From Ruminococcus sp. (lineage in GTDB: Bacteria; Bacillota; Clostridia; Oscillospirales; Ruminococcaceae), in assembly GCA_017441505.1 (NCBI GenBank), contig JAFRXL010000022.1:27883-91882 (forward strand): a DNA stretch of 64,000 nt, in the 5' to 3' direction. Under the pieces are notes generated by a model, which worked only from the letters and a program-made list of their open reading frames with translations, was not told where the DNA came from and made no database searches. Every line of letters begins with the position of its first letter. The stretch's first letter is position 1. Positions 1,493 through 22,491 of the stretch are shown here, piece by piece. A program made the position numbers and the translations under genes.

Positions 1493-3001
1493 ATGAATAA
1501 TCTAAAGAAAATGTTTTCATTCAAAACGGTTTATTCCGAAAACAAAACCTTTCTCGTTTTTTCTATCGGAAGAAAAGAAGAGATAAATTATTCACAGGTG
1601 CAAATGCTTGAAAGTGATACTTTCCGCAGCTATTTCCTGCCTTTTCAATGCACTAAAACTGCAAGCACTAATAAAATAAGCTTCAATATAAGCGGTCTTA
1701 CTTCACTCTCAGAATACCTTAAAACTGAGATGAAACAGGAACAGTATTTTGAAATGATAGCCGGCATCCAGAAGATAATCTCTTTCTGCCAGAAATCCTA
1801 TCTTTCTTACGATAACCTGATATGCGACCCTAAATATATGTACTATCACAACACCCTTAAAAGGATACTGATGATATATATACCGCTAAAAAATCCGCAC
1901 TACGTCTGCGATAATATTCCCAAATGCCTTAAAAAGCTCCACAACAATGCCAAAAGCGTTATAATCACTGACGGCAACTACATGAATAAATACGAAAACT
2001 ATCTTGCAAGATTCGCTAATTCCGGAAACAAAAAAGGCACGAACTCTTTTTCACCCGATTCACTCCTGCATTTCTTCAACGAAAATGACGTAATAAATAA
2101 TAATGCTCCTGTCGCTCCTGTAAACTACGAACCGGAACCGGTAAAGAATGATTTCTCCATAAACAGCCAGATAATACCTGTTATCCCGTCCGGAGAGCTC
2201 AATAACGACATCCGCTCACAGATGTCCGGTCAGCATGAACGCATCGACTCTGATATAGAGAGAACTTCCAGTGCGACTGTGGTAAGGTCACGCAGAGATG
2301 AGGTCTTCCTCACAGACCAGTCCGGAAATAAATATACAATCCGCAACTTCCCGTTCACTATCGGAAGAAGCCGTGATAAGGACATGGTCATCCCACAGGA
2401 TACCGTATCCGGAAACCATGCAACCATAACCTCTGAAAACGGCAGATATTTCATAAACGACCATTCTTCCAACGGTACATACCTCAACGACGAAAACAAC
2501 AAAATTTCCTACTGCGAGATAAACAACGGCGATAAACTTTTCTTCGACAGCTTCTGCTACCTGTTCACAGTCGTAAAGGCAAACAGCGGCAATGAAGAGG
2601 ACGATTCTTCAAGAACTGTAATGGTTTCAAGAAGACGGCAGCCTGAACAGCAGCAGCCTGCTCCGGAAGCTCAGGCAGTCCAGTCTGCTCCGGAAACTAA
2701 TGAAGCTCCGGCCGTTCAGGAAGCTCCGGCATCTCAGAAAGCTCTTGCTTACCTAAAACGCATCTATGATGACCGTTTCATACGCATAATGGAGTATCCT
2801 TTCAGGGATGACGAGCTCCCCGGAGTTACCTTCTTTACTGAGGTCGTTAACAACCGTACTGCTATATTCCTTGAAAATGTCTCCTGCGGCACACTTGTAT
2901 TTGAAAACGCTCTCGTCGCAAAAGGAACAACAGTCGAGATATTCTCAGGCTGTACATTATTCATAGACTGTGTAAAGTATACTTTCATAATCGAAAACTG
3001 A
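1493..3001 (+). CDS. FHA-domain protein with DUF6382-like N-terminus
   Basis: The FHA domain lies at about residues 277-362, with the expected TIGRSRDKD, SGNHATI and NDHSSNGTYLN motifs that bind phosphothreonine. The first ~175 residues look like the DUF6382 region found before FHA domains in Firmicutes; its pattern (SYDNLICDPKYMYY) loosely recalls the pseudokinase fold of the type VII component EssB/YukC, which is inference. A Pro/Gln/Glu-rich linker (about 375-415) joins a second beta-rich C-terminal module. No signal peptide or membrane helix is visible, so it is probably cytosolic. It heads the operon with phosphatase and kinase genes and probably reads the kinase's phosphorylation marks. 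Start: ATG after AGGAGG with about 9-nt spacing. Confidence 0.8.
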   Translation: MNNLKKMFSFKTVYSENKTFLVFSIGRKEEINYSQVQMLESDTFRSYFLPFQCTKTASTNKISFNISGLTSLSEYLKTEMKQEQYFEMIAGIQKIISFCQKSYLSYDNLICDPKYMYYHNTLKRILMIYIPLKNPHYVCDNIPKCLKKLHNNAKSVIITDGNYMNKYENYLARFANSGNKKGTNSFSPDSLLHFFNENDVINNNAPVAPVNYEPEPVKNDFSINSQIIPVIPSGELNNDIRSQMSGQHERIDSDIERTSSATVVRSRRDEVFLTDQSGNKYTIRNFPFTIGRSRDKDMVIPQDTVSGNHATITSENGRYFINDHSSNGTYLNDENNKISYCEINNGDKLFFDSFCYLFTVVKANSGNEEDDSSRTVMVSRRRQPEQQQPAPEAQAVQSAPETNEAPAVQEAPASQKALAYLKRIYDDRFIRIMEYPFRDDELPGVTFFTEVVNNRTAIFLENVSCGTLVFENALVAKGTTVEIFSGCTLFIDCVKYTFIIEN

Positions 3002-3017
3002 TACAGGAGCCAACAGT

Positions 3018-3800
3018 ATGTTTATTTATTCTTATGTCACTACTGAGGGAATTGTCAAGAAAGTAAATCAGGATGCTCTTATGATAAAAACAGCCCGCCT
3101 TCACGGAAAAGAGATACTGTTCGCCGCTGTCTGCGACGGTATCGGAGGTCTTTCCGGCGGAGAGGATGCAAGCTCCTGCGTGATAAAGGCTGTGTCTGAC
3201 TGGTTCGAGACAGAGTGTGCGGAGCTCATAAAAAACGACAGCGATATACTCGAAATAAGAACAAGCCTCGATGAAAGACTTCATAAGATCAATGACGCTA
3301 TAAACGATGAATGTGCAAGAGGACGGGAAATGGGTACTACATTCACTTCTCTCCTTATAGATATGATCCACAATTCTGTACTTGTCGCCCATGTCGGTGA
3401 TACAAGACTGTACAGGATATACGATAAGAAGCTTGAGATCATCACCTCTGACCATTCAATTGTTGCAGAAGAAGTAAGAAGAGGCATCATCTCAGCGGAA
3501 TCTGCAAGATTCGATAAGCGTCAGAACCAGATAACCAACTGCATCGGTGCAGGAGAAACCGGCAGAATGTACGATTTTGCCATACAGTCCCCTGAGCAGA
3601 ACTGCGTTTATATGCTCTGCTCTGACGGATTCAGAAAAATGGTATCACCGGAGGAACTGCATCAGGCTCTTATGCCTTCGGCAAATCCGGATCAGAACGC
3701 TCTGCATTCTTCACTGGATCACCTCCTGAGCCTTAATATCGACCGCAAAGAAAGCGATAACATAACCGCTCTTGCAGTAATTCTTAAAGGAGATCGATAA
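3018..3800 (+). CDS. PP2C-family Ser/Thr protein phosphatase
   Basis: Metal-dependent phosphatase of the Stp1/PrpC type, which removes phosphate from Ser/Thr residues. All core motifs are present: NQDAL near residue 19, CDGIGG near 39-44, GTTFTSLL, AHVGDTRLYR, DHSIV, CSDGF and the final DNITALAV. At 260 aa it is the size of a lone catalytic domain, with no membrane helix. It sits 16 nt after the FHA gene and 3 nt before the kinase gene, so all three should be made together; it is the natural counterpart of that kinase. Start: ATG behind AGGAG. Confidence 0.95.
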   Translation: MFIYSYVTTEGIVKKVNQDALMIKTARLHGKEILFAAVCDGIGGLSGGEDASSCVIKAVSDWFETECAELIKNDSDILEIRTSLDERLHKINDAINDECARGREMGTTFTSLLIDMIHNSVLVAHVGDTRLYRIYDKKLEIITSDHSIVAEEVRRGIISAESARFDKRQNQITNCIGAGETGRMYDFAIQSPEQNCVYMLCSDGFRKMVSPEELHQALMPSANPDQNALHSSLDHLLSLNIDRKESDNITALAVILKGDR

Positions 3801-3803
3801 AAG

Positions 3804-5489
3804 ATGAGCACAAAAGCCAGACTTTTGGCAAATCGCTATGAAATAGAAAAAATTGCTGGTCGTGGCGGTACATCCGTTGTCTATAAAGCATACGATCTTC
3901 AGGCTGAAAGAGCCGTAAGAGCTATCAAAGAGATCAGCAAATCAAAATACGAAGAATACGATATGGCTAAACAGGAATCAGCCCTCATAAAAGAACTCTA
4001 CGAGGCTGACCAGTCCAACGCTTTCTTCCCTAACATAATCCACCGATTTGAAACAGACCACTACTTCTATATCGTTCAGGACTTCCTTGACGGCGAATCT
4101 ATGGGATATATGCTCGAAGCAGGTCCTATGCCGTATAAAATGTTCATAGAAGCGGCTAAACAGATATGCTCCTTCATGAAGTTCTTCCACAGCACCGGAC
4201 GTGTTCACAGTGACATGAAACCGGAAAATATCATGGTGCTCAAACCCGGAAAAGCCATGCTCGATAACGATGCGAAGATCAAGCTGAAATTCATAGATTT
4301 CGGTACAGCTATCCGTAACGCTACCGGTGTTACAGGATATACTCCGGAATATGCCGCTCCGGAGCAGTACCGCCAGTCTGAGCTCGATGAACGCACCGAT
4401 ATTTTCAATATGGGTGCGACCTTCTTCCACATGATACAGGGAAGAAAGCCGCTTAAAGTCCACGGCGATAACCGTATGCTCACAACTCAGGAAAGATTCA
4501 AGTTCGATAAGAATGTGAGTGCGGATATAAAGAGGATAATCCTCAAATGCGTTGCCGAAGACCCCAATAAACGCTACCGCTCGTGCGATGCTTTATACAG
4601 AGACCTATGCCGTGTTGAAAGACACTCAAATATCCGCTGGCTCTCTCTTTCAGCATCGCTCTGTATACTCTGTTTTGTCGCTGCCGGAATATCATCGCAT
4701 ATGGCAAATAAGCTCGACAGGCAGAACATAGCGGAAAAATATGCCTCCAACGTCAACAAAGGCAACTACGCCGAAGCCATAAAGCTCGATCATACCAACA
4801 GGGACGATATTTACTCAAAGCTTATTCAGGACTTCACTCAGGACAGTAAACTCGACCACGATGAGGATAATTTCATAATCAATGAGATAAAAAGTCCGGA
4901 TTCTATAAAGTCGGGCGACAGCAATTACGGTAAATGTATGTACGAGATAGCCAATGCCTACTGGCTTTACTATCTTCCATATGATGACAGTTCAAAGGAA
5001 TATACCGAGCTTGAACTCGAAAAAGCAAGAATAAATGCCTCTTATGAATGGTTTGAAAAAGCTGTTTCCAGCAGCGACCTCAAAGAATCTATGCCGGACG
5101 CTTATAAACGTGCCCAGATATTCCTTAATATAGGCAAATTCTACATAGATATAGACCGCATGGAAAAAGAGGGCACTGACAGCTCTGAATTCTATACCGA
5201 GATGTGGAACAATGTCGAAGAGATGTCAAAATATATTGATGAATCCAATGAAGTGGTCAGCGTGCGTGTGTGCCAGACTCTTATGAGCCTTATTTCAAGG
5301 TATTCATCAAAGTTCCACCAGAACGGCGTTGATTTCAGAAGTCAGGAAAAAATAATCGATAATATAAACAAAAAAGTCTATCTCAACGGCGAGATCAACT
5401 ATAACAACGATTACGCAAGAAGTCTTGCAGAGAGCTTCGACACAGAGGCTGTAAGACTAAAGCTTGAGATGGCTTATGCCGATGAATAG
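3804..5489 (+). CDS. Membrane Ser/Thr protein kinase, non-RD type
   Basis: Hanks-type kinase domain over about residues 10-270. The glycine loop is GRGGTSVVYKAYD, the catalytic lysine is in RAIKEI, the catalytic loop is HSDMKPEN near 135 and the metal motif IDFG near 164. The residue before the catalytic Asp is Ser rather than Arg, so this is a non-RD kinase, perhaps not needing activation-loop phosphorylation. One membrane helix (about 279-300) is followed by ~260 residues with TPR-like helical stretches. These lack the PASTA repeats usual in PknB/PrkC, so it probably senses something other than muropeptides. Fourth-gene neighbours and the secretion genes downstream suggest it controls that machine. 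Confidence 0.93.
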   Translation: MSTKARLLANRYEIEKIAGRGGTSVVYKAYDLQAERAVRAIKEISKSKYEEYDMAKQESALIKELYEADQSNAFFPNIIHRFETDHYFYIVQDFLDGESMGYMLEAGPMPYKMFIEAAKQICSFMKFFHSTGRVHSDMKPENIMVLKPGKAMLDNDAKIKLKFIDFGTAIRNATGVTGYTPEYAAPEQYRQSELDERTDIFNMGATFFHMIQGRKPLKVHGDNRMLTTQERFKFDKNVSADIKRIILKCVAEDPNKRYRSCDALYRDLCRVERHSNIRWLSLSASLCILCFVAAGISSHMANKLDRQNIAEKYASNVNKGNYAEAIKLDHTNRDDIYSKLIQDFTQDSKLDHDEDNFIINEIKSPDSIKSGDSNYGKCMYEIANAYWLYYLPYDDSSKEYTELELEKARINASYEWFEKAVSSSDLKESMPDAYKRAQIFLNIGKFYIDIDRMEKEGTDSSEFYTEMWNNVEEMSKYIDESNEVVSVRVCQTLMSLISRYSSKFHQNGVDFRSQEKIIDNINKKVYLNGEINYNNDYARSLAESFDTEAVRLKLEMAYADE

Positions 5490-5499: not shown

Positions 5500-5952
5500 A
5501 TGGATTCTAATACATGGCGTGATATATCTCATATACTGCTTATATCCGGTATCGTCTTTCTGATACTGACCATTATTCTGGCTGTAAAATTCCAGCTGTT
5601 ATCTATGATAAAAGCTGAACTCAACCATAAAAAGAAAAAGATAAGTTCGGATAACAGAGATTACTTTGAATATGTTGAAAACAAAAACAGAAACAATATC
5701 GAAGCTATCTCCTCCTCTGAACGTTCAGGCTTCACTGAAAAAACAACAGCCGCAAGAAAAGCTGTTCCGCCGCCGGCAGTTGATGAAACTCCGGCAACGG
5801 TAGTCATATCATCAGCAAAGAAAAATGTGCAGCCTGCTAACATCGACGCTACAGTTTTGACCAGACGAAATAATGAGCAGAATGAAAATGAATTCATAAT
5901 AACCGAAAATATCATCGTTATACACGGTGATCCGAATATTGTTTCTGTCTGA
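5500..5952 (+). CDS. Small single-pass membrane protein, unknown
   Basis: 150 aa with one hydrophobic helix near the N-terminus (about residues 11-36, rich in Ile/Leu), then a lysine-rich segment and a charged, low-complexity tail of Ser, Thr, Ala and Asn. I do not recognise a family. The Lys-rich stretch after the helix suggests the tail lies in the cytoplasm. It starts 10 nt after the kinase and precedes the giant surface protein, so it belongs to the operon. The Thr-rich tail could be a target of the kinase next door, which is a guess. Confidence 0.75.
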   Translation: MDSNTWRDISHILLISGIVFLILTIILAVKFQLLSMIKAELNHKKKKISSDNRDYFEYVENKNRNNIEAISSSERSGFTEKTTAARKAVPPPAVDETPATVVISSAKKNVQPANIDATVLTRRNNEQNENEFIITENIIVIHGDPNIVSV

Positions 5953-6007: not shown

Positions 6008-9000
6008 ATGGAGCCAAAAAAACATATGCTTAGAAAGACCGCTGCTTTTGCTGCTGCACTTTCTTTCCTGTCTGCAACCAATCTGAACATAATGAATTCA
6101 GCTGCTGAATCATCAACTGTTAAAAAGCAGGCAATAGCTTCAACTGTAAAGGAGCTTAACAATAACGTGTCATCTGCACAGTCAGAGCAGTCCCCAAGTG
6201 CAGGCACTGCAAAATCTACTACAACGACAACAACTACTACCAGCACAACTACTACAACTACCACTACAACTACTACTGCACCGGTCACAAAATCAACTGA
6301 AATTCAGGTAGATATTGATGTGAACGGCGATTTCAACACTATGAATAATCTTACAGTTCATTATGCATCAGAACTGCAAAAAGAGCTTACAGGATTATCA
6401 CCATATATTTCTGTCGGCACAAAATGCAGTTATTCCAGATTGTATTATCCGCATAATGTCGTCACCATTACATATCCGGAAAATCTTGAAAGCACAGTTA
6501 AGAATAGAATAAACAATTTAAAGGTCGAAAAAATTGAGAATGAAACATATTATGCATACGGATATAGCATTGAACATGAACAGTGGGAGTGTAAACGCTA
6601 TTATAAACTGGAAGACTATTCTGAATTTGCAAAATTTAATATCCCAAACACTAATTTGAAGAAAAACGGTAATGACTCTTACGTCAGCGAGGACTATGAA
6701 TTTTCAGACAAATCTTTCACTGTTGAAAAAAGAGAATATTATCTTGATGATTTTTCCGGTATAAAACCGACCGGAAAAGTTACACTAAATTACCTGACTA
6801 TAAAGCTTAACGGAAAAGACCATGAAATAAAATCAGCAAAAGTTAATATAACATTGACATTCGATAATTGTTACATTGAAGATGGGAATATAAAGCTGTA
6901 CAGTAAGGAAATTAATTGTGAATGGAAGAATTTACAGAATGAAAAAATAACTATAAACTCAAAATCTGCAAACAATTTTATCATAGATAATAAATGGGAT
7001 GCTCCTATACCTATAGAATCTGAAAGTCAGACTATTGATATGGAAACCTTAGTAAAAAAATATACCGATTACTATGCAGACACAAATACCGATCCGCTGC
7101 CTAAAAATGGTGATATCACCTTTAATATCTATGCATCACCAAGCGAGATAGGTGCTCAGCGTATATTCCAGAATAGTGAAGGTGAAGAAGATACTTCATT
7201 AGAAGATACATATTCCTACAAGGTCGATCAGGATGACAATATAACTGTTCCATATGTTGTTAACAAAAACGGAAAAAATTACTACTTAGTGAGAGAAAGA
7301 TCATATATCCTCAAAAATACCGCCCTCCCCGACACCGGTGAAGATTCTCCAAATCGTGAATATCGTTCAGCAAAAACTTTTTCGGCGACAGAAATATGCA
7401 GCAATTTATTTTCAAATAACAGCCAAAGCTACTGTACTATAGATGCTCACGAAGATATAAACAACTTTTTTGTTGAACTCACATACAGAGAATTTCCGGA
7501 TACCGAAATAATTGATTCTGATCCTCTGATAAAACTGTTTGCAAACAGTCTTAACGGAACTATCAAGGATGATGTTATCTTTGCAAAAAGACCAGCTCCG
7601 ACCGGTGATGATAGTAAAAGATTAATATCCTTAAATCTCCCAGGATATGCCGGCCATGAAATAATAATAGTGGACGATGACAATAACAGCTCATCTGTAA
7701 AGGTAACGGCTGATGCGACCGATGCCACTGTCGGAAAAGCTGTATATGAAGTTAAGGACGATACTAAATTCGTAAAAGTTGTCCTCGTAAAGAAGATCGG
7801 CAATAAAGACGTGCCTGTTGATACTCAGCCTTTCTTCGTCTACTTCGATGACCACCAGCCTGAAATTATAATAAAAAACAATCCGAATAAATGGTCAAAT
7901 ACAAATAATTACAAAATTGAATTTACTGTAAATGATAAAGACGACCTCTCTTCTGTACATCCGCTTTTCTGTGCAGATGCAGAAAAAATAAAGAAGCTTG
8001 AAGAGCTGAAAGCTATCAAATATATCAGCATCCTCGAACAGGAAGGCAGTTCTACTCTTCCGCTGGTAACCTATGAGCATAGATTTAATATCCCTGATAC
8101 CATCGACGACCCAATAGATTCATATACTTTAAAAGCAGATGATCTGTCTCAGGAAGCTGAAAACAAACTCAATGTCACGCTCATAAAGAAGCTCGATGAA
8201 AAAGGAAATCCATATTTTACTGCCGAATTTTCTATGGCAGACAGTGCAGCTAAAGGTTACAGAGGTTATGTATATATTTATGCTGCCGCTGCTTCCGGAA
8301 TACCTGCAATCTTTGTGCCATCGGACAAAGAACCAAGGCATCAGGTGATGATCGATATTGCTGCCCCGACAGTTACAAGCATAACTGCAACAGTTGAAGA
8401 CAATAACCAGAACATAGAAAAATATTTAGAAAATGGTAAGAATATCAGGGTCAAAGCAGCAGCGACAGATAAATATGACGACTATCCATGCTGCGGTGTT
8501 GGTAAAAAAATCTATCATTTTAATGGTCAGACTATTACTAAAGAAAAAGATCAACTTGATGACGATGTGATATTTGAGGTAAGAAGCGATAACTGTAACG
8601 ACATCATCACGATAACAGTAGTTGACGGTGTCGGAAATTCTGATGATTTCTATTACTGCAATGATCCGGAAAACGGCAATGTTACAAAATATATATCAAA
8701 AGCTGAAAGAATAATCGTTGATAACATCTCTCCTTCAGAACCGGTATTAACAGCAGGCAAAGCCGATTTCACAGATGATAACAACACTCCTTTCCCACAT
8801 GATGACAAAAACTGGTATAAAAAATATGCTGATATATCGATCAAAGCAGAAGATGAAGGTGAAAGTGAAAACATTTCCGGCATAGCTGAACTGAGATTCA
8901 TTTTCAATAATACTGAAAAGAACATTACTGTAGATACACTTTGTGATCCGGATAATTACGGTTTCCCTTCGGCTGATATACTTGTAAGTGAACTTGCAAA

Positions 9001-12000
9001 AGATAATGCGTGCTATCTGTGCTTTGTTCAGGATGAGATAAACAGTTCAAGATACCTGCCGTACCTCAGAGACAAAAATTATCCTTCTGTCAATGTAAAA
9101 CTCACCGATTCCCCTATCAGTTTATATAACGACGGAAAATTTGAGTTGAAAATGCAGACTGCGGATAACTCCGGAAACGTAAGCCAACAGACTTCTATAG
9201 AAGTCTTCATCGACAATAACGCTCCGACTTCCGACGGAATATTTGAAAAGGGAAATGCGGAACACAGCGACAGGACTGATGATTCCATCCATATGTACAA
9301 ATACGGTACTTTCAGCAACCACAGGATACAGATCAAAGTGCCTGTTTCTGACGGTCAGGACACAGTACCTTCATCAGGCTACCGTGATGCCTATCTTACC
9401 GTAACTAAAAAGGACGGAACTGATGTAACATTCTTCTCAAATAAATTTGATAACGACTATGTTATATTCGAGCTGCCGGATAGTCTTGATGAAAATGAAG
9501 TTTTCTCCGGCACTATGACAGTGTGCGTATATGATAAAGTCGGAAATAAATCAGAGGTGACCGCTCTTGTATCACCTCAGCCAGACAGCAGTGAAGTCCT
9601 GATACTCGAAAGGGTCGCTCCTGTTATCCCCGATGCTCCGCAGCTGAAAGGCAATGACCGCTATACAGACGGCGAAGGTAAAATATGGTTCAGCAGTGAT
9701 GTTGCTTTAAGCTATAATATTTCCGATGCCGATTCCGGTCTTGCAAGAGCTCATATAATAAGAACTCACGAGGGCGAAGCTCCGGAAGCTCCTCAGGCCA
9801 AAGAATATACCGGCAAAAATGTTATCACATCAAGTGATGTGCATACCATATCCACAGCCTCCGGAAAAGACGGAAGATTCGATTTCAACGTCTACGCAGA
9901 GGATAACGCAGGCAATCATTCAGATAATTCATTCACGGTATATAAGGATACTTCAATACCTTATATCTACTCGTTCAGCTTCTCAGGACTTATAAAGAAC
10001 AGCGACAGCGAGATATGGTTCAATAAAGCTCCGGCTAAGTACGGACACTTCCATAACAGCGACTACATCATGACCGTAACTGTAAAAGATGACCTCGGAG
10101 CAAGCTCCGGTATAAAGAATATATACTGCGAGCTCTATAACGCTGACGGTTCATTGTTCAGGTCTTACGTATTCGATGCCTCATCATTCAGAAGTACGGG
10201 CGAGGCTGATACCTATTCTGCCGACTTCGCCGTACCTGAGGGATTCAAGGGCGATATAAGAGCATGGGCTGTCGATAACGTTGCTCACGAATCACAGAAA
10301 GCTTCACCTAACGGATTTATATCAGAGAACAGAAATACTCACGATAACGCCTCATACAGCCATGTGACCATAACTCTGCCTTCAACAACAAAACACGATA
10401 CCAGTGGCAGACCTCTGTATAATCAGAACGTTGAAGCTAAGATAGAGATAACTGATATTCATTCCGGTATCGAGCAGATCCGCTGGAGAACTTCCGATAC
10501 TCAGGACTGGATGGAGCTGAGAATAAACGCTGACGGAAATATCAGCGGAAACACTGAGGGCTGGGAAATACAGAAAAACGACAGGAATATCATCCAGAGC
10601 ATTTCTAAAAATATCATCGTATCAAAAGATGCTAACGACGATTTCATTCAGGTCGCTATGAAGGATAATTCCCAGAATATATCCGAAGCAGAGGCAAGAT
10701 TCAGCATTGATAAGCATAAGCCTGTCATAGCAGTTTCCGGAATCGAAAAGTCAGATCAGGTAAAATATTACAACACACATAAAACTGCTCATGTTGTCAT
10801 ATCTGAGCGAAATTTCGACTCTCCTTCTGTAAACGGAACTGTTGATACAAGATTTGCTGACGATAACCGTACCGATAAGAACTCAGACCAGTTCAGACAT
10901 ACAAGAGACCTTCCTTTCAATTCCGACGGACGTTACAATCTGAACATAACTGATACCGACCTCGCCGGAAATGCCTCCGATGCCTATGCATCCGGTACAT
11001 TCGTTATCGATACTATTGCTCCGAAAGCATCAGTAACTGTAAGAAAAGACAACGGAGTTACAGTCGCAAACGGAAAGAATACATACATTGAAAGTCCGGC
11101 ACAGGCAACAGTAGTTGTCGATGAGATAAACTTCGACCCCCAGCTCGTCAGCATAACCATAAACGGCAAAGCTTTCACACCAAGCGGCTGGAGCGGTACA
11201 AATTCTCATTCCGCTTCTATACCTGTGAGCTACTTTACAAATGACGGCTCATACACTATCTCTGTATCCGGCAAGGACCTTGCAGGAAATACTCTGAAAA
11301 CTACTGCCGTTTCGTTTACTGTCGATAAAAAAGAGCCTGAAATAAATATCACAGGTGTATCCTCAGCTAATAAGGACACCGTTGCTCCTGTTGTCAATAT
11401 CAAAGACAGCAACCTTGATTCTCAGAACGTAAAGGTATACAGAAATGGTCAGCCGCTGAAGCTCACAACAGAAAATAACGGTCAGACAGCTAAATACGAT
11501 GTAGACGGCAGCGGCAGCTTCATCACTGCTAACTGGGTCGAGGAAAACGATAACAGTGACATCAAAAAGAAGCTCGTATTCGATAACTTCCCGACCGACG
11601 AGGTTTTCGACGGTTCATACAGGATAGAGGTCGAAACTGCTGATAAAGCTGAAAACACATCCTCTGAAGATCTCGAATTCACTGTAAACAGACACGGTTC
11701 TGTATTTGCTGTGCAGAATGCGGAGGATATAAACGGAAAATATCTCAATAAAGCTCCTACTATCGTCATAACAGAGCGAAATGTAGACAAGCATAACTCC
11801 GACTCTGAAATAATCATAATAGTCGACAAGGGCTCAAATACAGTCAAGCTGACAGACAGAGAGTATGAAGTTTCCGAGCCTGTAGCTTTATCGGATAATT
11901 CGGGATATGAGTACACCTACACTATCCTTCCGGAAGTATTCGATCAGGACCTTAACTACAATATCTCTATACAGTCAGTCGATGCTGCCGGAAACAAGAA

Positions 12001-12442: not shown

Positions 12443-12455
12443 TACAGGTGATAAA

Positions 12456-14359: not shown

Positions 14360-14368
14360 GCTGTAAAG

Positions 14369-14417
14369 AACCTGTCAGCATGGCGTATCCGAAAGGCTTA
14401 GAACCTGCTGACAGGTT
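14369..14417 (+). other. Hairpin with 12-bp perfect stem between operon halves
   Basis: AACCTGTCAGCA (14369-14380) and its exact complement (14406-14417) flank a 25-nt loop. No T-run follows, so it is not a classical terminator. The right arm ends 14 nt before the yukD ribosome site. It may stabilise or cut the mRNA, or partly stop transcription before yukD. Confidence 0.6.
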
Positions 14418-14440
14418 AATTTTATGTGAAAGGAGCTTTT

Positions 14441-14692
14441 ATGAATAAAATAATCGTTCAGGTCTATCTTCCTGCTAACGGAAAGACCTATGATATAAGA
14501 CTTCCCGAGGATATGTATGTCCACGATGCTGCGGACATACTCGGCGACCTTTTTGCCGATGCGGCAAAGGGTCTTTACTGCAAGGGCGATGTAAATATAC
14601 TCTGTTTCCTTGATAAGGGAGAAAGTCTTCCTCAGGACAAAACTCTTAAAGAACTTAATATCTGCAACCGCACAAAATTAATGTTCGTATGA
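14441..14692 (+). CDS. yukD: YukD/EsaB-like ubiquitin-fold protein
   Basis: 83 aa from ATG 14441, which follows AAAGGAG; an earlier in-frame start lacks a site. Beta-grasp pattern as in YukD/EsaB: an initial strand (IIVQVYLPANGKTYDIRLPE), a helix (DAADILGDLFADA), and a closing segment LKELNICNRTKLMFV. EsaB is a cytosolic accessory factor of Firmicutes type VII secretion. Its position just before essC is the usual order in these loci, and this supports the call. Confidence 0.85.
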   Translation: MNKIIVQVYLPANGKTYDIRLPEDMYVHDAADILGDLFADAAKGLYCKGDVNILCFLDKGESLPQDKTLKELNICNRTKLMFV

Positions 14693-14714
14693 TCCAATAT
14701 AAAGGGGTGAGATA

Positions 14715-17700
14715 ATGCTTCTTATTACTTTTTTGCAGAACGAATTTATCAACACTACCGTTCTGCCTGATAAGAAAAAAGGTCACTATAAACTCAATCA
14801 CGGCATAAGCAGCCTGACAGAGGATATAAATATCGACGGTATCGACAATAAATGGATAATATCCGGCGGCAATGAATACAGCATATACCGCTATTCAGAT
14901 GACGATAATGCCGAGCTCGTACAGCAGGCTGAGCTGACAAGTGACGATGTGCTTACTATAGATATTGCCGGTACAAGATGCATCCTCATAGTCGAGACTA
15001 TAAAAGATGAGAAAAACCGCTTCAACAAAATATGCTTCAATAACCCTTCTTCCCAGAAATTCAGTATCGGTAAGAAAAGCGACAACGATATAGTCCTTGA
15101 TGATACATATATATCCGGTTACCACGCTCTTATATCCAAAGAAAACGGAGTATGGAAGGTCACCGACCGTCAGAGCAGAAACGGTACTTACGTAAACAAC
15201 CGCAGAATAGACGGCGAATATGAGCTTAATATCGGTGATGTGGTGTTCATCGTCGGATATAAATTCATAATCTGTGCCGACTTCATAGCCGCTAATATCG
15301 ATTTCGACAAGAACGTAAAAGGCAGAGGTCTGAGCAAAGTCATATTCCCTAAATTCGTGCGTCCGGTAAAGAAAAGCGAGAGCTATGATGACTATTTCTA
15401 CAGGACTGTCGACCTCGGAGAAAAAGCTCCGGACCTTCCGGAGATAAAACTGCTTCCGCCCGAGCATATGCATAAGGTGGACGAACAGCCTGCTATACTC
15501 AGCATGGGCTCTGCAATGACAATGAGTACCGCTACCGTCCTTGTAGCCGCTTACTCGGGCCTTGCAGCTTATTACCGTGGTACGAATATATCCTATGTAG
15601 TCCCCTCTTTCATCATGGCAGGAAGTATGGTGCTTTCCTCATTGCTGTGGCCAAATCTCATAAGAAAACGCCGTAAGAAGGATATGAGGATCCGTGAGGC
15701 TCAGCGTATAAAGGAATATCAGGACTATATCATGGACCTCAGAGCTGCTGTCAATGTAATGCTCGATAACGAGAAAGAGTACCTCTGCAATAAATTCCTG
15801 ACCGCTGAGCAGTGCATGATGAGGGTCATAAACCATGACCGTTTCCTGTGGAGCAAAAGCATCAACGATGAAGATTTTCTCAGTGCGGCTATAGGTACAG
15901 GTAAACGTGAGTCTGCTATACAGGTAAAGTATACCGAAGATGCCGACACTTTCTTCAAGGACGACCTGCGTTATGATATGATGCAGTTTGCTCATGATGA
16001 AAGGATACTCTACGATGTGCCGATAACTATATCGCTCAATAAAGGCTGCATATGCGGTATCAGCGGAGAAAAAGCTGCCGCTTACGACCTCATCAAAGAG
16101 ATAGTAGTACAGCTCACATCACTTTATTCATATGACGAACTGAAGCTCATCTTCATCTGCGGTGAGGACGAAGACGAAAAGTGGGACTATGTAAAGTGGC
16201 TTCCGCATACATGGAACAGCGAAAACTCTTTCAGATACTTTTCATCCTCCGCAGATGAGCTTAAAGAACTTGCTGCCGAGCTTGAAAAAGAGATCGATAA
16301 CCGTATGACTCACCCACAGAATGATTTCCCGAAAATGCTCGTTATCGCCTCTAACAAAAAGTACATGGACAGCCTTGATATTATGTCCGTTATCATGAAG
16401 AACAGGGCATCACTGAATATAAGCATACTTACAGCGTTCGGAATGTACAACTATAATAACTCCAACATCATCATAGAAATTTCCGGCGAGGGAGCTAAGG
16501 TCTACGACCGCAAAAACAGTGATGTATCTGAGTTCAGACCATATACAGTGCCCACCGCACTCGATTCACCTGTTATCAACTTTGAAAATTACCTCGATAC
16601 AATATCAAATATAAAGCTCGATATAACCAACGAAAAATATCAGCTCCCTAAGATGATAACCTTCCTTGATATGTTCAAGGTATCAAAGGTAGAGCATCTT
16701 AACAGCCTTACAAGGTGGGCTGAGAACAATCCTATAAAGTCGCTGAAGACCGAGATAGGTGCATCACCTTCCGGCGACGTTTTCTTCATCGATATGCACG
16801 AAAAGTACCACGGTCCTCACGGACTTATAGCCGGTACTACCGGTTCAGGTAAGAGTGAATCTATCATCACTGTGATACTCTCACTTGCTGTAAACTACAG
16901 TCCGGAGGAAGTCGCATTCGTTATCGTCGACTACAAGGGCGGCGGTCTTGCCGACGCTTTCAACGATGTCAAAGAAGAAGTTATAGACGGCAAAACAGTT
17001 GAGGTAAGCTATAAGCTGCCGCACGTTGTGGGAACTGTTACAAACCTCGACGGCTCAACTATCGAAAGAGCCTGCATATCCATTGAGACTGAGATCAAAC
17101 GCCGTCAGATACTTTTCAAGAAAGCACGTAAAATATCCAACGAGGGTACTATGGATATTTACAAGTACCAGCAGCTCAGACGTGAAGGTGCTGACCTCGA
17201 AGTGCTCCCTCACCTATTTATAGTGTGCGACGAGTTCGCTGAGCTCAAAGCCGACAGAAGCGACTTCATGGACCTTCTCGTAAGTGCGGCTCGTATCGGA
17301 CGAAGCCTCGGTGTGCACCTCATACTCGCTACACAGAAGCCGGACAGCGTTGTAAGCCCTCAGATATGGAGTAACTCTCGTTTCAAGATATGTCTTAAAG
17401 TTCAGGGAAAAGAGGACAGTAAGGCTGTTATCCAGTGCCCTGACGCTGCCGAAATATCCACAACAGGACGTTTCTTCTTCCAAGTAGGATACAACGAAGT
17501 GTTCAGCATGGGACAGTCTGCATGGTGCGGTGCGGACTATATAGAAGCAGAGGATTTTGTCAAGAGCGATATAGAGTCCGCTGAGGTCATAGGCAATACC
17601 GGAAATATCATTTACGAAAAAGTTAGAAAACCTGAAATAAAAGTCAACAAGAACAAGCGTACAGTTTCTCAGCTGATAGCTGTAAGAAATTACCTCATAG

Positions 17701-19406
17701 ACATTGCAAAGGATATGGATGTAAGACCTCTATGGCTCGACCCTATCCCTGCAAAGCTCTCTCTCAAAGCACTCTACAGCGAGCTTGGAGAGCGTAAATA
17801 CAGGGACAATTACGTGCCGCTCGACCCTGTTATCGGTAAGCGTGATGACCTGTACAACCGCATTCAGGAGATAATGACAGTGCCGTTCTCTGAGAAAGGA
17901 AATCTCATAGTATACGGAGCTGCCGGAAGCGGTCTTGATATGTTCTTCATTTCTTTCATCTACTCGCTCATCTATGCCTATAATGCAGATCAGGTGAACA
18001 TATATGTACTTGATTTTGATGCCGGATTCCTTAAAGTATACGAAAAAGCTCCGCAGTTAGGGGACGTTGTTATCGAAGAGGAAGAGGAGGATGTCAAGAA
18101 CATTATAAGCTCCATAAGCGATGAGATAAACAGAAGAAGCAAGCTTTTCTCTGAGTACAGAGGTGAATATTCAGAATACTGCAAGTACTCCGGAAGCACT
18201 CTCCCTAACATCGTGCTTATCCTCAACAACTATACTGCCTTTATGGAAAAATTCAACGAGGGCATAACTTCTCAGCTTATCTACATCGCAAGAGAAGGCG
18301 TTAAAAGAGGTGTATATGTAGTTGTAGGAACTCCTTCCATAAACACCAATTTCCGTCTGAGACAGTATATCCAGCAGACATTTATGCTGAAAATGAACGA
18401 TGTAAACGATTATGTCGGAATACTCGGACGTACCGGCGGCATCACTCCTTCCGACTGTGCAGGAAGCGGTATCGTAAAAGAGAACGATATTACATATAAA
18501 TTCCAGACTGCCGATATTTTCGACATTATCCCTTCGGAAGATGAAGCAGACGAGATAATCCTCGATTCTGCCAAGGAAATAAGAGACCTCTGCGAGGATA
18601 TAAACGAAAACTGGAACGGAAAATCAGCACATTCATTTAAGCATATTGAAATAAATACAGAAAATGTACTTTCCGATGATGTATCATGGAAGAGCATCCC
18701 TCTCGGTACAGCAGATGATACCGTTTTAACCTATGATATGAGCGATAAATACATAACCTTTGTTTCTTCCGTTTCCGAAGAGCATCTTACCCGTTTTGCC
18801 GGATATATCACAAAGGCTCTTGCAAAGGATGACTCTATCTCTGTAGTCCTCCTCGACAGCTCGGGAGAACTCAGACCGGATGAAGAGGTTAACTATAAAT
18901 ACTACTCAACAGTTGAAGAATTCGATGAATGGAACAAGTTCTACAAAGCAGATGCCGAAGAAAGATGCAGCAAGCTGATAAAAAATGAACAGGGCGAGAT
19001 AGTCATGAGCGAAGACGCAAAACACGTCTATGTCGTTATAAACTCCTTCCAGAAAGCTTCAAAGATAGCCGATCTCAACGTAACTTTCAATAACTTCAAG
19101 CTCATTATCAACGAACTTCCGGAGGTACACTATCACTATGTTATTCTTGATACACAGAATGATATGAACGCCGACAGAGGTGCATATGTCCACATAGTCA
19201 AGAACCTTACAGACATCACCTCTCTTGATAATTTCGACATTGAAAATAACAGAGAGTGGTTCGATGCTTCGGGTATATGGCTCGGCGGAAGCTTATCCAG
19301 AAACGGATTATTTACTATCGAGAACACTCCGCCTATGCTCACGGAAAGCGAAGGAATTATCATAAGAAATAAGACCGCTGAGAAGAAATTCCGTTATTTT
19401 GTGTGA
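14715..19406 (+). CDS. essC: EssC-type FtsK/SpoIIIE secretion ATPase
   Basis: 1563 aa, the usual length for EssC, the motor of Firmicutes type VII secretion. N-terminal FHA-like region with a second, clear FHA domain at about 116-190 (SIGKKSDNDIV, SGYHALI, SRNGTYVNNRR). Two membrane helices follow at about 265-285 and 295-315, then three ATPase modules. The first has an intact Walker A GTTGSGKS near 706-713 and a Walker B-like LFIVCDEFAEL. The second has GAAGSGLD near 1068 with Leu in place of the Lys, so it probably does not hydrolyse ATP. The third is degenerate. This pattern is known for EssC, where the outer modules mainly bind substrate. The first start (ATG 14715) follows AAAGGGGTG. Confidence 0.95.
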   Translation: MLLITFLQNEFINTTVLPDKKKGHYKLNHGISSLTEDINIDGIDNKWIISGGNEYSIYRYSDDDNAELVQQAELTSDDVLTIDIAGTRCILIVETIKDEKNRFNKICFNNPSSQKFSIGKKSDNDIVLDDTYISGYHALISKENGVWKVTDRQSRNGTYVNNRRIDGEYELNIGDVVFIVGYKFIICADFIAANIDFDKNVKGRGLSKVIFPKFVRPVKKSESYDDYFYRTVDLGEKAPDLPEIKLLPPEHMHKVDEQPAILSMGSAMTMSTATVLVAAYSGLAAYYRGTNISYVVPSFIMAGSMVLSSLLWPNLIRKRRKKDMRIREAQRIKEYQDYIMDLRAAVNVMLDNEKEYLCNKFLTAEQCMMRVINHDRFLWSKSINDEDFLSAAIGTGKRESAIQVKYTEDADTFFKDDLRYDMMQFAHDERILYDVPITISLNKGCICGISGEKAAAYDLIKEIVVQLTSLYSYDELKLIFICGEDEDEKWDYVKWLPHTWNSENSFRYFSSSADELKELAAELEKEIDNRMTHPQNDFPKMLVIASNKKYMDSLDIMSVIMKNRASLNISILTAFGMYNYNNSNIIIEISGEGAKVYDRKNSDVSEFRPYTVPTALDSPVINFENYLDTISNIKLDITNEKYQLPKMITFLDMFKVSKVEHLNSLTRWAENNPIKSLKTEIGASPSGDVFFIDMHEKYHGPHGLIAGTTGSGKSESIITVILSLAVNYSPEEVAFVIVDYKGGGLADAFNDVKEEVIDGKTVEVSYKLPHVVGTVTNLDGSTIERACISIETEIKRRQILFKKARKISNEGTMDIYKYQQLRREGADLEVLPHLFIVCDEFAELKADRSDFMDLLVSAARIGRSLGVHLILATQKPDSVVSPQIWSNSRFKICLKVQGKEDSKAVIQCPDAAEISTTGRFFFQVGYNEVFSMGQSAWCGADYIEAEDFVKSDIESAEVIGNTGNIIYEKVRKPEIKVNKNKRTVSQLIAVRNYLIDIAKDMDVRPLWLDPIPAKLSLKALYSELGERKYRDNYVPLDPVIGKRDDLYNRIQEIMTVPFSEKGNLIVYGAAGSGLDMFFISFIYSLIYAYNADQVNIYVLDFDAGFLKVYEKAPQLGDVVIEEEEEDVKNIISSISDEINRRSKLFSEYRGEYSEYCKYSGSTLPNIVLILNNYTAFMEKFNEGITSQLIYIAREGVKRGVYVVVGTPSINTNFRLRQYIQQTFMLKMNDVNDYVGILGRTGGITPSDCAGSGIVKENDITYKFQTADIFDIIPSEDEADEIILDSAKEIRDLCEDINENWNGKSAHSFKHIEINTENVLSDDVSWKSIPLGTADDTVLTYDMSDKYITFVSSVSEEHLTRFAGYITKALAKDDSISVVLLDSSGELRPDEEVNYKYYSTVEEFDEWNKFYKADAEERCSKLIKNEQGEIVMSEDAKHVYVVINSFQKASKIADLNVTFNNFKLIINELPEVHYHYVILDTQNDMNADRGAYVHIVKNLTDITSLDNFDIENNREWFDASGIWLGGSLSRNGLFTIENTPPMLTESEGIIIRNKTAEKKFRYFV

Positions 19407-19661
19407 AAAAATGGTGGGTTTTTACAGCAAAAAGAGCGGAAACCTTCAGCAATATAAAGGGTAAAAAACAGCAAAAAAATTTTTTATGGTCAAAATTTGC
19501 CGATATTCCGTGACTTATTGGACACCCAAAATTTAAAATAACTAAAATTTTAACCCGTGCATTTTTAAAATACCCCAAAATACAAATGTGGTATAATATA
19601 TTCAACAAAGCAAGAGATGCTTTGAAAACGATCAATTATTTATTAATAGGAGGAATTAAAA
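19407..19661 (+). promoter_or_regulatory. Promoter region of the WXG100 genes
   Basis: A 255-nt AT-rich gap. An extended -10 (TGGTATAAT, with TATAAT at 19592-19597) lies 65 nt before the first WXG100 start; no good -35 is visible. A separate promoter here would let the small, abundant substrates be made in excess over EssC. No terminator is visible after essC. Confidence 0.6.
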
Positions 19662-19982
19662 ATGGCAAACAATTCAATTCGTTACAGTGAAGGTACAGAT
19701 TCCGTTATAAACACTGCTACCCAGATCTCTGAACTCGGTGATGAATTCTTCAGAGAATACACACAGCTTTATAATTTAGTTGAAGGCGATATGGCATCTA
19801 ACTGGAAGGGCGAAGACTTCGATGCTTTCAAGCAGAGAGTAAATGACGAAAAGCACTTCTTTGAAACAATGAGAGACATTATCACAGAGTATGCTACTTT
19901 CCTTCGCAACACAGCTAATGCTCATGAAGCTCGTATGGAAGACAGTAAAACTCAGGTTGATTCAAACTGTTCTTTTGATTGA
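19662..19982 (+). CDS. WXG100-family secreted protein
   Basis: 106 aa, two helices joined by a turn with NWKG (Trp-x-Gly at about residues 47-49), the mark of ESAT-6/EsxA-like proteins. It has no signal peptide, as expected for substrates exported by EssC. A C-terminal helix carries the E/Y/F-rich stretch. Strong AGGAGG ribosome site. Placed just after essC and before a second protein of the same size, with which it may pair. Confidence 0.9.
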   Translation: MANNSIRYSEGTDSVINTATQISELGDEFFREYTQLYNLVEGDMASNWKGEDFDAFKQRVNDEKHFFETMRDIITEYATFLRNTANAHEARMEDSKTQVDSNCSFD

Positions 19983-20046: not shown

Positions 20047-20361
20047 ATGGCTAACAGAGAATTATTTATAAGCCCAGAAGCAATCAGAACTTGTGCTTCT
20101 AATATCAATACATATGCTGATCAGATCAAGGATACTCTTGATAATCTCGTTGTAAAAATGGACAGCACAGAAGCTTTATATCAGGCACAGAGTGCTGTGG
20201 ATATGAGAGAAAAGTTCACAGAACTTAAACCTGAATTCGAGAAGTTCACAGCTTACCTCAGAAAGGTAGCTACATACCTCGTTCAGAACGTTGCAGATCC
20301 AGCAGATGTAACAGATCAGGTTGCATCTCAGAACGTTGCAAACATTAAGAAGCCTCGCTAA
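20047..20361 (+). CDS. WXG100-size partner protein lacking the WXG turn
   Basis: 104 aa, all-helical, two-helix hairpin arrangement like ESAT-6 family proteins. Where the Trp-x-Gly turn should be, the sequence reads LYQAQSAVDMREKF, so the motif is missing. Such WXG-less partners occur in heterodimers (as CFP-10-like or LXG-like partners), so it probably pairs with the 106-aa protein. The helix after the turn (KFTELKPEFEKFTAYLRKVATYL) keeps the heptad spacing. AGGAGG lies upstream; the gene is 64 nt after its neighbour. Confidence 0.8.
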   Translation: MANRELFISPEAIRTCASNINTYADQIKDTLDNLVVKMDSTEALYQAQSAVDMREKFTELKPEFEKFTAYLRKVATYLVQNVADPADVTDQVASQNVANIKKPR

Positions 20362-20381
20362 GTAAACTCATGAAACAGCAC

Positions 20382-20425: not shown

Positions 20426-20460
20426 ATAATCAACAATTAAATATTTAAAGGTGGTTTAAG

Positions 20461-22491
20461 ATGATATTTAAACGTATAATATCAGCGATGACTGGTGCTG
20501 CCTTGCTTACATCCTATATGTCCGTTCTTTCCGGATGCAGCTTGAAGGAGTTCTTCAATAATTCAAGCTCAAGCTCAGATACATCTGAGGATAAAGCCGA
20601 TGACGGAGTTCTCACAAACGGTGAGTGGCTGTCAATGGTCAATGATGCATTCGGTATGCAGGTCGACGAAGAAGCAGAAGACGGCGAACTCGATGCAGCA
20701 AGGGAATGGGGAGTTATCGGTGAAAGTGAAGAAATCGACAAGAATGCTCCTGTAGATGATAAATTCGTTACCACTACTCTGATGAGAGCAGCCGGATTTG
20801 CTGACGAGAATTCTACTGATGAAGAGGTCATAAATGCCGCTATCGAACACGGCGTTCTCAAGGATTCAGAAACTCCTCTTACTGATCCTACAGCAGCTGC
20901 TGAAACTCTTATACAGGCTCAGAACGAATGGGCTAATCAGGAATTTGAAGAGCATCGTAATGTTGATCTCGTAGAAGGCGTTCAGAACTTTGATGAAAAA
21001 CTGAAAACAACAGACTTTGAGATCAAAGACGATTTTATCGTACTCCCGACAGAGTACGCTCAGACACTTACCAAAGACAGTGTATTCATCCTTCCAAAAG
21101 ACGAAGAAACAGGCAAGGGCGGTGCCTATAAGGTAGTTGCTACTGTTGACAACGGCGACGGCACAACAAATGTTAAGGGAGTTGCTGCTAAGCCGGAGGA
21201 AATATATTCAAAACTTGATGTTTCCGGTAAGATCGCTCCTGATCTCAGTAAATTTGAACCTTCTTCTGACCCGAGAGTTTCATTCAACGGTACAGAAGCA
21301 ACCGGAGTCTCTTACGCACAGCCAGAAGACTTCACTGTAAGACCTCTCAGCTATACAGGCTATAATGGTGACCAGCCTATTAAGGCTATGGCTTCTGTAG
21401 GATTAAATTCAATCGACTTCTCGATCGATCTCAATGATGATCTTACATTAAGTACAAGTGTTCATGACATTTCATTGAATGCTGATATTGACTGGGATTT
21501 CGGAATCTTCTCTGGTCTTGATGTTAACAGAGTTTACATGGCTATAAAATATAGTTCTGAGATCTCAATAGAATCTACACTGTTTGACCTTGACGATGTT
21601 ACCAAAAAGAAATTTGAACATGAACCTTCTATCGAACTTGGTAAGATACCGGTTTATATATGCCCGGGTCTTTCAGTAAATCTCAGATTTGAACTCTGCC
21701 TTGAAGCAAGCGGTAAGATCAAGCTTTCATTCACAACAAATAATACAAAGGGCTTTGAAATGAAGGGTTCAAGCTTCCGTGCTATCGATGAATGCTCAAA
21801 GAGCGTTGACCTCCTCCTTACAGGTGAAGCTGGTATTTACTTCAAGATAATACTTGCACTCAGCCTTGATTATGCTATAGGTGAGGTCGATCTTCTCAGC
21901 CTTGAACTCAAGTTAGGTCCAAATGCTAAGGCAGAAGCTAAAGTACATAAAGAGAGCGGCAAGGATCCTCTCGTCTGCCTCGATATAGGTGCTTCGTTTA
22001 AGGTGGAACTTAAACTATACCTTATGAAGACGCTAATGGAGATCATAGGTGCCGAAGCCTCGATAACGCTCATAGATTATGATAAGAGTCTCTGGAATCG
22101 TCATTTTGAAAACTTCAAGCAAGTTCCAAAGTGTACAGCTGATGAAGAAGCAACTACCGAAGCAGTTGAAACAACTACTATTCCAACAGGTAACTTCGAG
22201 CTTGCTGATGCTTATGTATCACTCGAAGCTGGTCAGAGCGGAAGAATCGGCGTTAAATCCCTCCCATCCGGCTACACTGTAAATGACCTCGTATGGTCTT
22301 CAAGTGATACCTCTAAGGTAACTGTAGATCAGAACGGTAATGTAAACGCTATCGCAGGCGGTACTGTCAGCATCACAGTTAAGACCAAGGATGGAAAGAA
22401 TATAAGAAACTGTGCGGTTATGGTAAAATCCAAAGTTAACCTCGCAGACAATACAGGACAAAATAATACAGTACAGCTTTTAGCTGCATGA
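20461..22491 (+). CDS. Lipoprotein with SLH-like and BIG2 domains
   Basis: 676 aa. The signal peptide ends in a lipobox (SVLSGC, Cys26), so it is lipid-anchored outside the membrane. After an acidic linker, residues ~45-140 show two SLH-like stretches (NGEWLSMVNDAFGM and TLMRAAGF). The centre (about 300-560) is a long beta-rich region of unknown fold. The last ~80 residues match a BIG2 Ig-like domain (LVWSSSDTSKVTVDQNGNV). It lies at the end of the type VII block, just before a terminator, so it is probably an outer partner of the system. Function unknown. Confidence 0.82.
   Translation: MIFKRIISAMTGAALLTSYMSVLSGCSLKEFFNNSSSSSDTSEDKADDGVLTNGEWLSMVNDAFGMQVDEEAEDGELDAAREWGVIGESEEIDKNAPVDDKFVTTTLMRAAGFADENSTDEEVINAAIEHGVLKDSETPLTDPTAAAETLIQAQNEWANQEFEEHRNVDLVEGVQNFDEKLKTTDFEIKDDFIVLPTEYAQTLTKDSVFILPKDEETGKGGAYKVVATVDNGDGTTNVKGVAAKPEEIYSKLDVSGKIAPDLSKFEPSSDPRVSFNGTEATGVSYAQPEDFTVRPLSYTGYNGDQPIKAMASVGLNSIDFSIDLNDDLTLSTSVHDISLNADIDWDFGIFSGLDVNRVYMAIKYSSEISIESTLFDLDDVTKKKFEHEPSIELGKIPVYICPGLSVNLRFELCLEASGKIKLSFTTNNTKGFEMKGSSFRAIDECSKSVDLLLTGEAGIYFKIILALSLDYAIGEVDLLSLELKLGPNAKAEAKVHKESGKDPLVCLDIGASFKVELKLYLMKTLMEIIGAEASITLIDYDKSLWNRHFENFKQVPKCTADEEATTEAVETTTIPTGNFELADAYVSLEAGQSGRIGVKSLPSGYTVNDLVWSSSDTSKVTVDQNGNVNAIAGGTVSITVKTKDGKNIRNCAVMVKSKVNLADNTGQNNTVQLLAA

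Follow-up and report, generated by a model that had tools for sequence, protein, structure and literature searches.

The assembly GCA_017441505.1 of Ruminococcus sp. harbors, on contig JAFRXL010000022.1, a type VII secretion locus in which genes for an FHA protein, a PP2C phosphatase and a membrane Ser/Thr kinase stand in one row with the gene for an EssC-type ATPase. The window analyzed here is a stretch of 64,000 nucleotides (positions 27,883 to 91,882 of the contig). The locus occupies window positions 1493-22491 on the plus strand, in the order J, F, D, K, I, u310, u324, B, C, A1, A2 and a lipoprotein-like gene:

1493..3001, +, J: DUF6382, FHA and a C-terminal beta-rich-looking domain, TseJ-like adaptor (Pfam FHA 2.6e-15, residues 289-349; DUF6382 5.9e-11, residues 17-134)
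3018..3800, +, F: PP2C/PPM phosphatase, TseF-like (PP2C_2 3.4e-9; NCBIfam Stp1 155 bits, below the cut-off of 230)
3804..5489, +, D: membrane Ser/Thr kinase with an outer domain, TseD-like (Pkinase 2e-34; transmembrane segment near residue 277)
5500..5952, +, K: single-transmembrane protein of 150 residues with a Thr-motif tail, TseK/TseH-like (transmembrane segment near residue 7; relatives; Thr-motif test)
6008..12442 (longest frame from 5927), +, I: giant Ig-like surface protein of about 2144 residues, TseI-like (Big_13 3.3e-16; C-terminal transmembrane segment; signal peptide by eye; relatives)
12456..13388, +, u310: conserved protein, paired with u324 in the lineage (no Pfam family above cut-off; 15-row alignment, 51-73% identity)
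13385..14359, +, u324: Rep_3 winged-helix-like protein (PF01051 1.6e-4, 22.5 bits against a cut-off of 22.4; 60-85% identity in 15 relatives)
14441..14692 (frame from GTG at 14426), +, B: YukD/EsaB-like ubiquitin-fold protein, TseB-like (PF08817 0.013, 16.7 bits, below the cut-off of 27; syntenic relatives)
14715..19406, +, C: EssC-type ATPase with an FHA domain, TseC-like (TIGR03928 829 bits against a cut-off of 778; FHA 9.6e-18, residues 117-177)
19662..19982, +, A1: WXG100-like protein (PF06013 3.3e-4, 21.3 bits, below the cut-off of 27.3; syntenic relatives)
20047..20361, +, A2: WXG100-like protein (PF06013 4.7e-7, 30.4 bits, above the cut-off of 27.3; syntenic relatives)
20461..22491, +, lipoprotein-like protein with a Big_2 domain, 3' of A1-A2 (Big_2 5.3e-10; lipobox by eye; relatives)

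The initial annotation of this DNA had described an FHA protein, a PP2C phosphatase and a membrane kinase in one gene row before yukD, essC and two WXG100-size proteins; all are present on the plus strand, and their coordinates and domain assignments proved right. A chance arrangement is excluded, because further genomes of the genus have the same row, with 26-86% identity by protein. Among named records, the closest match returned to the window EssC, at 95% identity, comes from a sheep-rumen metagenome-assembled genome of Ruminococcus sp. (L104; handles beginning with L denote loci, those with G genomes). The window assembly (2.24 Mb) contains full-length EssC as a single copy and is only 79.6% complete; absences were therefore judged on relatives. 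J has no transmembrane window by hydropathy. B was assigned by position and kinship, with copies adjoining EssC in 11 relatives of the genus at 41-86% identity. From J to C the genes overlap or are separated by 3 to 81 bases (66 with the GTG start of B), and 255 bases lie ahead of A1. A promoter scan was no better than shuffles (52 versus 46.7, sd 6.5), a terminator scan gave 24 versus 15.0 in shuffles (sd 3.5), and the two do not fix the operon borders. Elsewhere in the window, the minus strand carries a frame of 1953 residues (45947-51808).

Assignment to T7SSe and comparison with other systems

T7SSe is a kind of type VII secretion system described in Bacillota by Garrett, Higginson and Palmer in 2024 (PMC11217815; this and the other papers named below are cited from part of their text). 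It comprises TseA, TseA2, TseB, TseC, the kinase TseD, the PPM phosphatase TseF, TseH, TseI, TseJ and TseK, of which TseI is a large Ig-like protein, TseJ a DUF6382-FHA protein and TseK a protein with a single transmembrane segment. The phosphothreonine motif is kept in the FHA domain of TseC, and a non-identical WXG100 pair is an exception of T7SSe and T7SSg. The window shares with T7SSe an EssC with a phosphothreonine-type FHA domain, a WXG100 pair, a YukD-like (TseB-like) protein, TseD-like kinase, TseF-like PPM phosphatase, TseJ-like DUF6382-FHA protein, small single-transmembrane protein and giant, TseI-like Ig-like protein. Judged by these parts, and not by phylogeny, the locus is of the T7SSe kind, in a Ruminococcus-group variant. 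It differs from the published systems in that the triad heads the row, one small single-transmembrane protein (5500-5952) is seen where T7SSe has two (TseH and TseK), u310 and u324 lie between I and B, a lipoprotein-like gene lies downstream, and Lys replaces Arg in the EssC FHA pocket. The lipoprotein-like protein may be a further T7SSe part, since its profile also matches in 32 of the 60 loci L124-L183, where domain-only matches are possible.

The initial annotation raised the possibility of a divergent architecture. It is not a new one, because T7SSe with these parts and the comparison with type VI secretion are already in PMC11217815, where phospho-control of T7SSe is proposed as a prediction and likened to type VI secretion in Agrobacterium. 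What is added here is a candidate docking tail, support for a relation to EssB, a cassette shared with Tad loci, and the two lineage genes u310 and u324. No publication on the window locus itself was found in the literature on Ruminococcus type VII secretion and WXG100 proteins, judged by title.

In sister genomes a further gene, x323 (L046:11504-12475), lies between K and I; the window has none there. Its product reads as a signal peptide, a Thr-rich linker and a C-terminal transmembrane segment, and a reading as a cohesin-like protein was rejected for lack of Pfam support.

The T7SSb systems resemble the window in having EssC together with YukD-like and WXG100 proteins, an adaptor that shows kinase-like features, and a large surface protein. 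Unlike T7SSb, the window locus keeps the phosphate pocket in the EssC FHA domain and has a kinase and a phosphatase, and EssB and EsaA were not found (EssA was not searched for). EssB (PF10140) was missing at E<=0.01 from all 26 EssC-bearing genomes searched, with controls including Bacillus subtilis positive, and EsaA (TIGR03929), which the initial annotation had called not recognisable, gave no match above cut-off in the same genomes. Matches of EsaA below cut-off were seen in G132 (85 bits, approximately 320 kb from its essC) and G446 (17 bits). The searches covered 26 of the 31 known EssC-bearing genomes (all except G052, G111, G143, G432 and G518). Of these 26, 21 have a completeness of 90% or more with contamination no higher than 5%. 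By the same searches, a separate full type VII set with EsaA and EssB, hidden elsewhere, was found in none of the 26. In a sample of the phylum, EssB was found in one of 149 genomes (E<=1e-10), and in the order of that genome in 23 of 120 (E<=1e-20).

PppA is a member of the type VI threonine phosphorylation pathway. The window locus resembles that pathway (PpkA, Fha and TssL; PMC3953482) in having a kinase, an FHA protein and, by prediction, a phosphorylated membrane partner. The machine is a different one, and the window FHA protein scores 59.7 bits on the TagH model, against a cut-off of 120.

FHA pockets, the K tail and the DUF6382 domain

The EssC FHA domain, which the initial annotation placed near residue 116, has G119, K120, S134, H137 and N156 at its pocket positions. 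It was compared in 30 chosen rows, taken from the window clade and from loci where EssC neighbors a DUF6382 protein (G476 and L119 being one record). The Ser and His are kept in 30/30 rows and the Asn in 29/30. The pocket His is missing from all 22 EssC rows that come from EssB-bearing genomes; these frames were picked by position beside EssB, and all match the EssC profile. This contrast agrees with PMC11217815 and with PMC9600267, which reports that the FHA domain of B. subtilis EssC binds the pseudokinase domain of EssB, presumably independent of phosphate. In J, the G-R, S, H and N residues are kept in all eight rows of the window clade, as read from the alignment.

The catalytic K, D, N and D of kinase D are invariant in 22/22 rows. 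The phosphatase F contains the motifs NQDA, CDGIGG, CSDGF and SDNITA, which are the metal-binding motifs of PP2C phosphatases.

Protein K crosses the membrane once, close to its N-terminus, and its tail closes with a conserved F-x-I ... V-I-H-x-D stretch. The tail is placed in the cytoplasm after the prediction for TseK in PMC11217815. Tails of different loci carry Thr repeats, such as N-A-T-E-V-L (L143), N-A-T-T-V-L-S (L141), N-T-V-L-A-P-Q-Q (G431) and N-T-V-L (G135), and the window tail has A-T-V-V-I-S and A-T-V-L-T. A motif was defined as Thr, Ser or Asn with [VIM][VILMP] either directly behind it or one residue further on. In 19 tails, by this pattern set after they had been viewed, 100 of 266 Thr lie in the motif, against 6 of 225 Ser and 8 of 211 Asn. 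The 84 non-overlapping motifs compare with a shuffle mean of 14.3 (maximum 29 in 2000 shuffles), and 18 of the 19 tails have at least two. The near-identical relative of the window tail (L104) and the copies of G449, G476 and G472 (L118, L119 and L122, respectively) were left out. An earlier, narrower pattern, T-[VIM]-[VILM], gave 18 versus 1.8 expected in seven window-clade tails and 33 versus 9.05 in another 16, copies among them; it was later widened, with the tails already seen, to admit one intervening residue. In six tails independent of the choice of pattern, 15 of 45 Thr compared with 3 of 42 Ser are in the motif (p 0.003). These tails are L110 and L113 (both partial), L116 and the Tad-locus tails L240, L242 and L243; L105, L107 and L108 were excluded as copies of rows already used. 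FHA domains prefer phosphothreonine over phosphoserine, and a motif biased to Thr is what this preference predicts. The K tail is plausibly a candidate multisite dock for FHA domains.

The DUF6382 domain of J is mentioned in one publication that was found (PMC11217815). AlphaFold2 models residues 1-200 of J with a mean pLDDT of 90.9, in the order strand-strand-helix-helix-strand-strand-short helix-long helix-strand-strand-three helices. The N-terminal domain of EssB (EssB-N; PMC3694306) is described with a sheet of four strands, a connection between strands 4 and 5 and two antiparallel helix pairs, and the predicted topology fits this description. By hhalign, a DUF6382 profile of 77 rows matched an EssB-N profile of 22 rows with E 1.4e-4, score 32.1 and probability 52%; the scores of controls did not exceed 21.1 in 100 column-shuffled profiles and reached 10.8 with EssB-N reversed. 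The match of DUF6382 to kinase D of the same operon is weaker (E 2.6e-3), and no relative among solved structures was found by sequence at E<=5. Based on profile and model, DUF6382 is likely a remote relative of the EssB pseudokinase domain.

Kinase D, with its kinase domain, transmembrane segment and outer domain, is a second candidate for the EssB counterpart. Full-length D matches full-length EssB with E 2.5e-4 and score 41.1 (at most 26.6 in 60 shuffles). Taken singly, its domains match less well: the kinase domain scarcely matches EssB-N (E 0.014), and the outer domain gave no match to that of EssB (E 0.11). By these profiles, J and D may both be remote kin of EssB. The initial proposal that the N-terminus of the FHA protein could be a soluble counterpart of EssB is supported as far as the remote likeness of DUF6382 in profile and topology goes.

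Distribution of the gene set at type VII and Tad loci

Neighborhoods were read by blastp and by profiles built from Ruminococcus copies. EssC above the TIGR03928 cut-off is encoded in 12 of 148 genomes of the family, and relatives of the window EssC (E<=1e-60) in 16 of 100 genomes of the genus. Where the upstream sequence reaches far enough, the window EssC clade has J, F, D, K and I next to EssC in the window, G135, G440, G431, G476, G449 and G472. In G135, I is a frame of 2056 residues, and the profile scores it as I in L107, the named twin of G135. In L115, L120 and L123, J, F, D and K stand in opposite orientation to the EssC genes. Outside the genus, the order C-B-A1-A2-(lipoprotein)-J-F-D-K, with some other frames interspersed, occurs in eight loci (L128, L132, L141, L143, L145, L150, L169 and L175), of which L169 belongs to Caproiciproducens galactitolivorans. 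Matches to J, F and D together were found in 19 of the 60 loci L124-L183. Other types of EssC lie beside one to three PP2C phosphatases and up to three larger kinases in L036, L038, L124-L126, L129, L153 and L159; a PF10140 search did not find EssB in G132 and G077, the genomes of L036 and L038.

A class-wide search over 391 genomes detected DUF6382 in 72 of them (E<=1e-12). Twenty places with DUF6382 were inspected, chosen and not random, one of them being the second copy in the window genome. At 15 of these 20, genes for TadB, TadC, prepilin peptidase or TadE-like proteins lie beside it, as called with Pfam Peptidase_A24, T2SSE and T2SSF; TadE-like is a label given by reading, with no Pfam match. 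Of the others, L245 has EssC, and L239, L249, L252 and L258 have neither EssC nor Tad genes. The Tad (type IVc) pilus loci have prepilin peptidase, TadB/TadC and TadE-like genes in place of EssC and WXG100, and are like the window in that the cassette genes follow in the same order in two of them and nearly so in a third. In G1006 (L240) and G207 (L242), J-F-D-K-(small membrane protein)-I stands after Tad-type genes, with TadB and TadC further upstream (L261 and L262); the K of L242 was called by position and sequence, not by profile. In G812 (L243), Tad-type genes are followed by J, two other membrane frames, F, D and K, and an apparent start of I at the contig end. A Tad-type locus is also present in G063, from the window's family, where J stands with three PP2C phosphatases and two larger kinases. 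No EssC was found in G207, G812 and G063 at E<=1e-45, and G1006 has a partial EssC (340 bits) approximately 507 kb from its Tad locus. In a kinase tree, the three Tad kinases are interleaved with type VII ones, and well-supported branches force at least two changes of machine; the tree has one long outgroup branch, and G031 and L164, which neighbor a Tad row, are of odd composition. Apart from PMC11217815, no publication on such a cassette at Tad pili and type VII loci was found, judged by title.

At L183, one stretch (206-2269; 8260-19795) combines a prepilin peptidase, a WG-repeat gene and a DUF6382 protein with an EssC locus that has a DUF6382 protein of its own. The window genome itself encodes a second DUF6382-FHA protein of 700 residues (G000:C34:76536-77069; L239:8165-10267) beside a second PP2C phosphatase, with no EssC or Tad genes in 20 kb.

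The gene set is not dedicated to type VII secretion, because it also ends Tad loci while other EssC types of the genus are without it in the stretches read. The initial annotation had considered, as a refutation, that related genomes might carry the kinase set far from essC, and this proved partly true. Beside the window type of EssC the set is adjacent; at Tad loci the same set stands at the end, and in the stretches read near the EssC of G485, G503 and G513 it was not found.

The genes u310 and u324 belong more narrowly to the window lineage. They lie directly 5' of B and C in 16 of the 18 named window-clade loci covering the place (L104-L123 minus the contig-cut L106 and L112; the two without them are L119 and L121), and they remain with EssC where the triad is inverted. 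By profile neither is found in the 60 loci L124-L183, not all of which cover the place. In G499 (L084/L085), J and F stand directly 5' of u310-u324-B-C, with a second A1-A2-lipoprotein set upstream. The u324 protein is better conserved than J (60-85% versus 32-58% identity), and u310 has Cys150, Cys154 and Cys168 invariant in 15 rows. A DNA-binding regulator is a possible role for u324, a guess from its likeness to the Rep_3 winged helix. That u324 is a common gene of the order was considered and rejected, as the model matched only the window copy in 295 genomes (G135, which has one, was outside the draw).

A proposed phospho-docking switch and its alternatives

The best explanation of the whole, to which we give a probability of roughly 60%, is that the locus is of the T7SSe kind, with a phospho-docking switch made of D, K, J, EssC and F within a portable J-F-D-K-I cassette. 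Kinase D would sense the envelope through its outer domain and phosphorylate Thr motifs in the K tail and in the linkers that flank the FHA domain of J. Once marked, these motifs would be bound by the FHA domains of both J and EssC, and an active export site would assemble from EssC, J and the giant protein I, which would span the wall; F would reset the site by stripping the marks. The DUF6382 domain of J probably fills the adaptor part that the pseudokinase domain of EssB has for EssC in T7SSb, and J-F-D-K-I would be an envelope cassette also carried by some Tad pilus loci. The initial claim that the triad would control a type VII machine is supported in so far as the set adjoins EssC, the FHA phosphate residues are kept (with Lys for Arg) and the catalytic residues of the kinase are intact; the set is not dedicated to type VII secretion.

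Several observations weigh against this explanation. The Arg position of the EssC pocket is Arg in 17 of the 30 rows, Lys in eight, including the window, Gln in four and Thr in one. The K pattern stems from the 19 tails it was counted in, and L164, one of them, and the Tad-locus tail L240 have no motif by it. In J of the window clade, each of the eight rows shows one or more T-[VIM]-[VILMP] sites, chiefly in the linkers that flank the FHA domain, counts that come without a chance control. The likeness of DUF6382 to EssB is remote at 52% probability, and an earlier profile of 34 rows was weak (E 0.0035-0.0059; 0.006 in another run). G499 (R. flavefaciens 007c, L109) has J and F beside EssC without D, K and I there. 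Beside the other EssC types of the genus in G485, G503 and G513, 37-38% identical, none of J, F, D, K and I was found by profile (E<=1e-4) in 26.0, 36.0 and 16.5 kb, respectively, and G466, whose EssC is 32% identical to that of the window, has a weak kinase match only. No publication was found that reports measured phosphorylation, binding or secretion for T7SSe.

A wider proposal can be made tentatively, at somewhat less than even odds. A self-contained cassette, made of J as an EssB-like pseudokinase-FHA adaptor, the phosphatase F, the sensor kinase D, the K tail with its multivalent phosphothreonine repeats and the giant wall protein I, would be both shared and exchanged by type VII and Tad systems, which are otherwise unrelated machines of the envelope, and would gather their ATPases at the membrane. 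T7SSb would then be the derived state: its kinase signal would have been lost, and the pseudokinase EssB would bind EssC with no need of phosphate. Comparable weight, again a little under one half, is due to the alternative that DUF6382 is unrelated to the job of EssB and only gives FHA proteins, in many machines, a kinase-like platform. The 15 inspected places beside Tad genes, with no EssC in the stretch, are what such a platform would look like. However, DUF6382 matches EssB-N better than it matches the kinase of its own operon, and none of the 26 searched EssC-bearing genomes of the family has EssB.

It is less likely that the cassette steers expression or general envelope homeostasis and is a mere neighbor of the type VII genes rather than an assembly switch. 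IreK acts in this way on the T7SSb locus of Enterococcus, and PMC11217815 cites IreK-dependent transcription of T7SSb. The presence of the cassette in Tad loci, the spread of DUF6382 through the class, the triad divergent from the EssC genes in L115, L120 and L123, and the other EssC types of the genus without a cassette all suit this alternative. It does not account as readily for a phosphothreonine-type pocket in EssC that is seen here and not beside EssB, nor for a K tail that resembles an FHA docking site.

Still less probable, in our judgment, is that K serves chiefly as a structural anchor, a membrane subunit akin to TssL or TseH, and that its repeats are unphosphorylated low-complexity filler. 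Tail length and repeat number vary widely, and the best-conserved part is the C-terminal F-x-I...V-I-H-x-D stretch, not the repeats. Filler would not explain a motif that falls on Thr and rarely on Ser or Asn in the same tails, or that recurs in tails with different surrounding letters. An equally improbable view makes the locus T7SSj-like or a type of its own: T7SSj, the published kind that comes next after T7SSe in likeness, has the T7SSe set minus TseH, the window shows one small single-transmembrane protein, and u310 and u324 are not among the T7SSe parts named in the cited text of PMC11217815, but T7SSj is described with a TPR kinase and a TsjC nearer T7SSf/b, whereas the window has a non-identical WXG100 pair and no TPR model among the Pfam matches of D at E<=1.

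The published suggestion of phospho-control becomes directly testable, as candidate sites (the K repeats and J linkers) and likely readers (the FHA domains of J and EssC) are now named, and a cultured commensal genus is available as a test ground. The resemblance of DUF6382 to EssB would suggest what replaces EssB in systems without it. If it is true that the cassette serves both machines, type VII secretion and Tad pili would have a signaling part in common.

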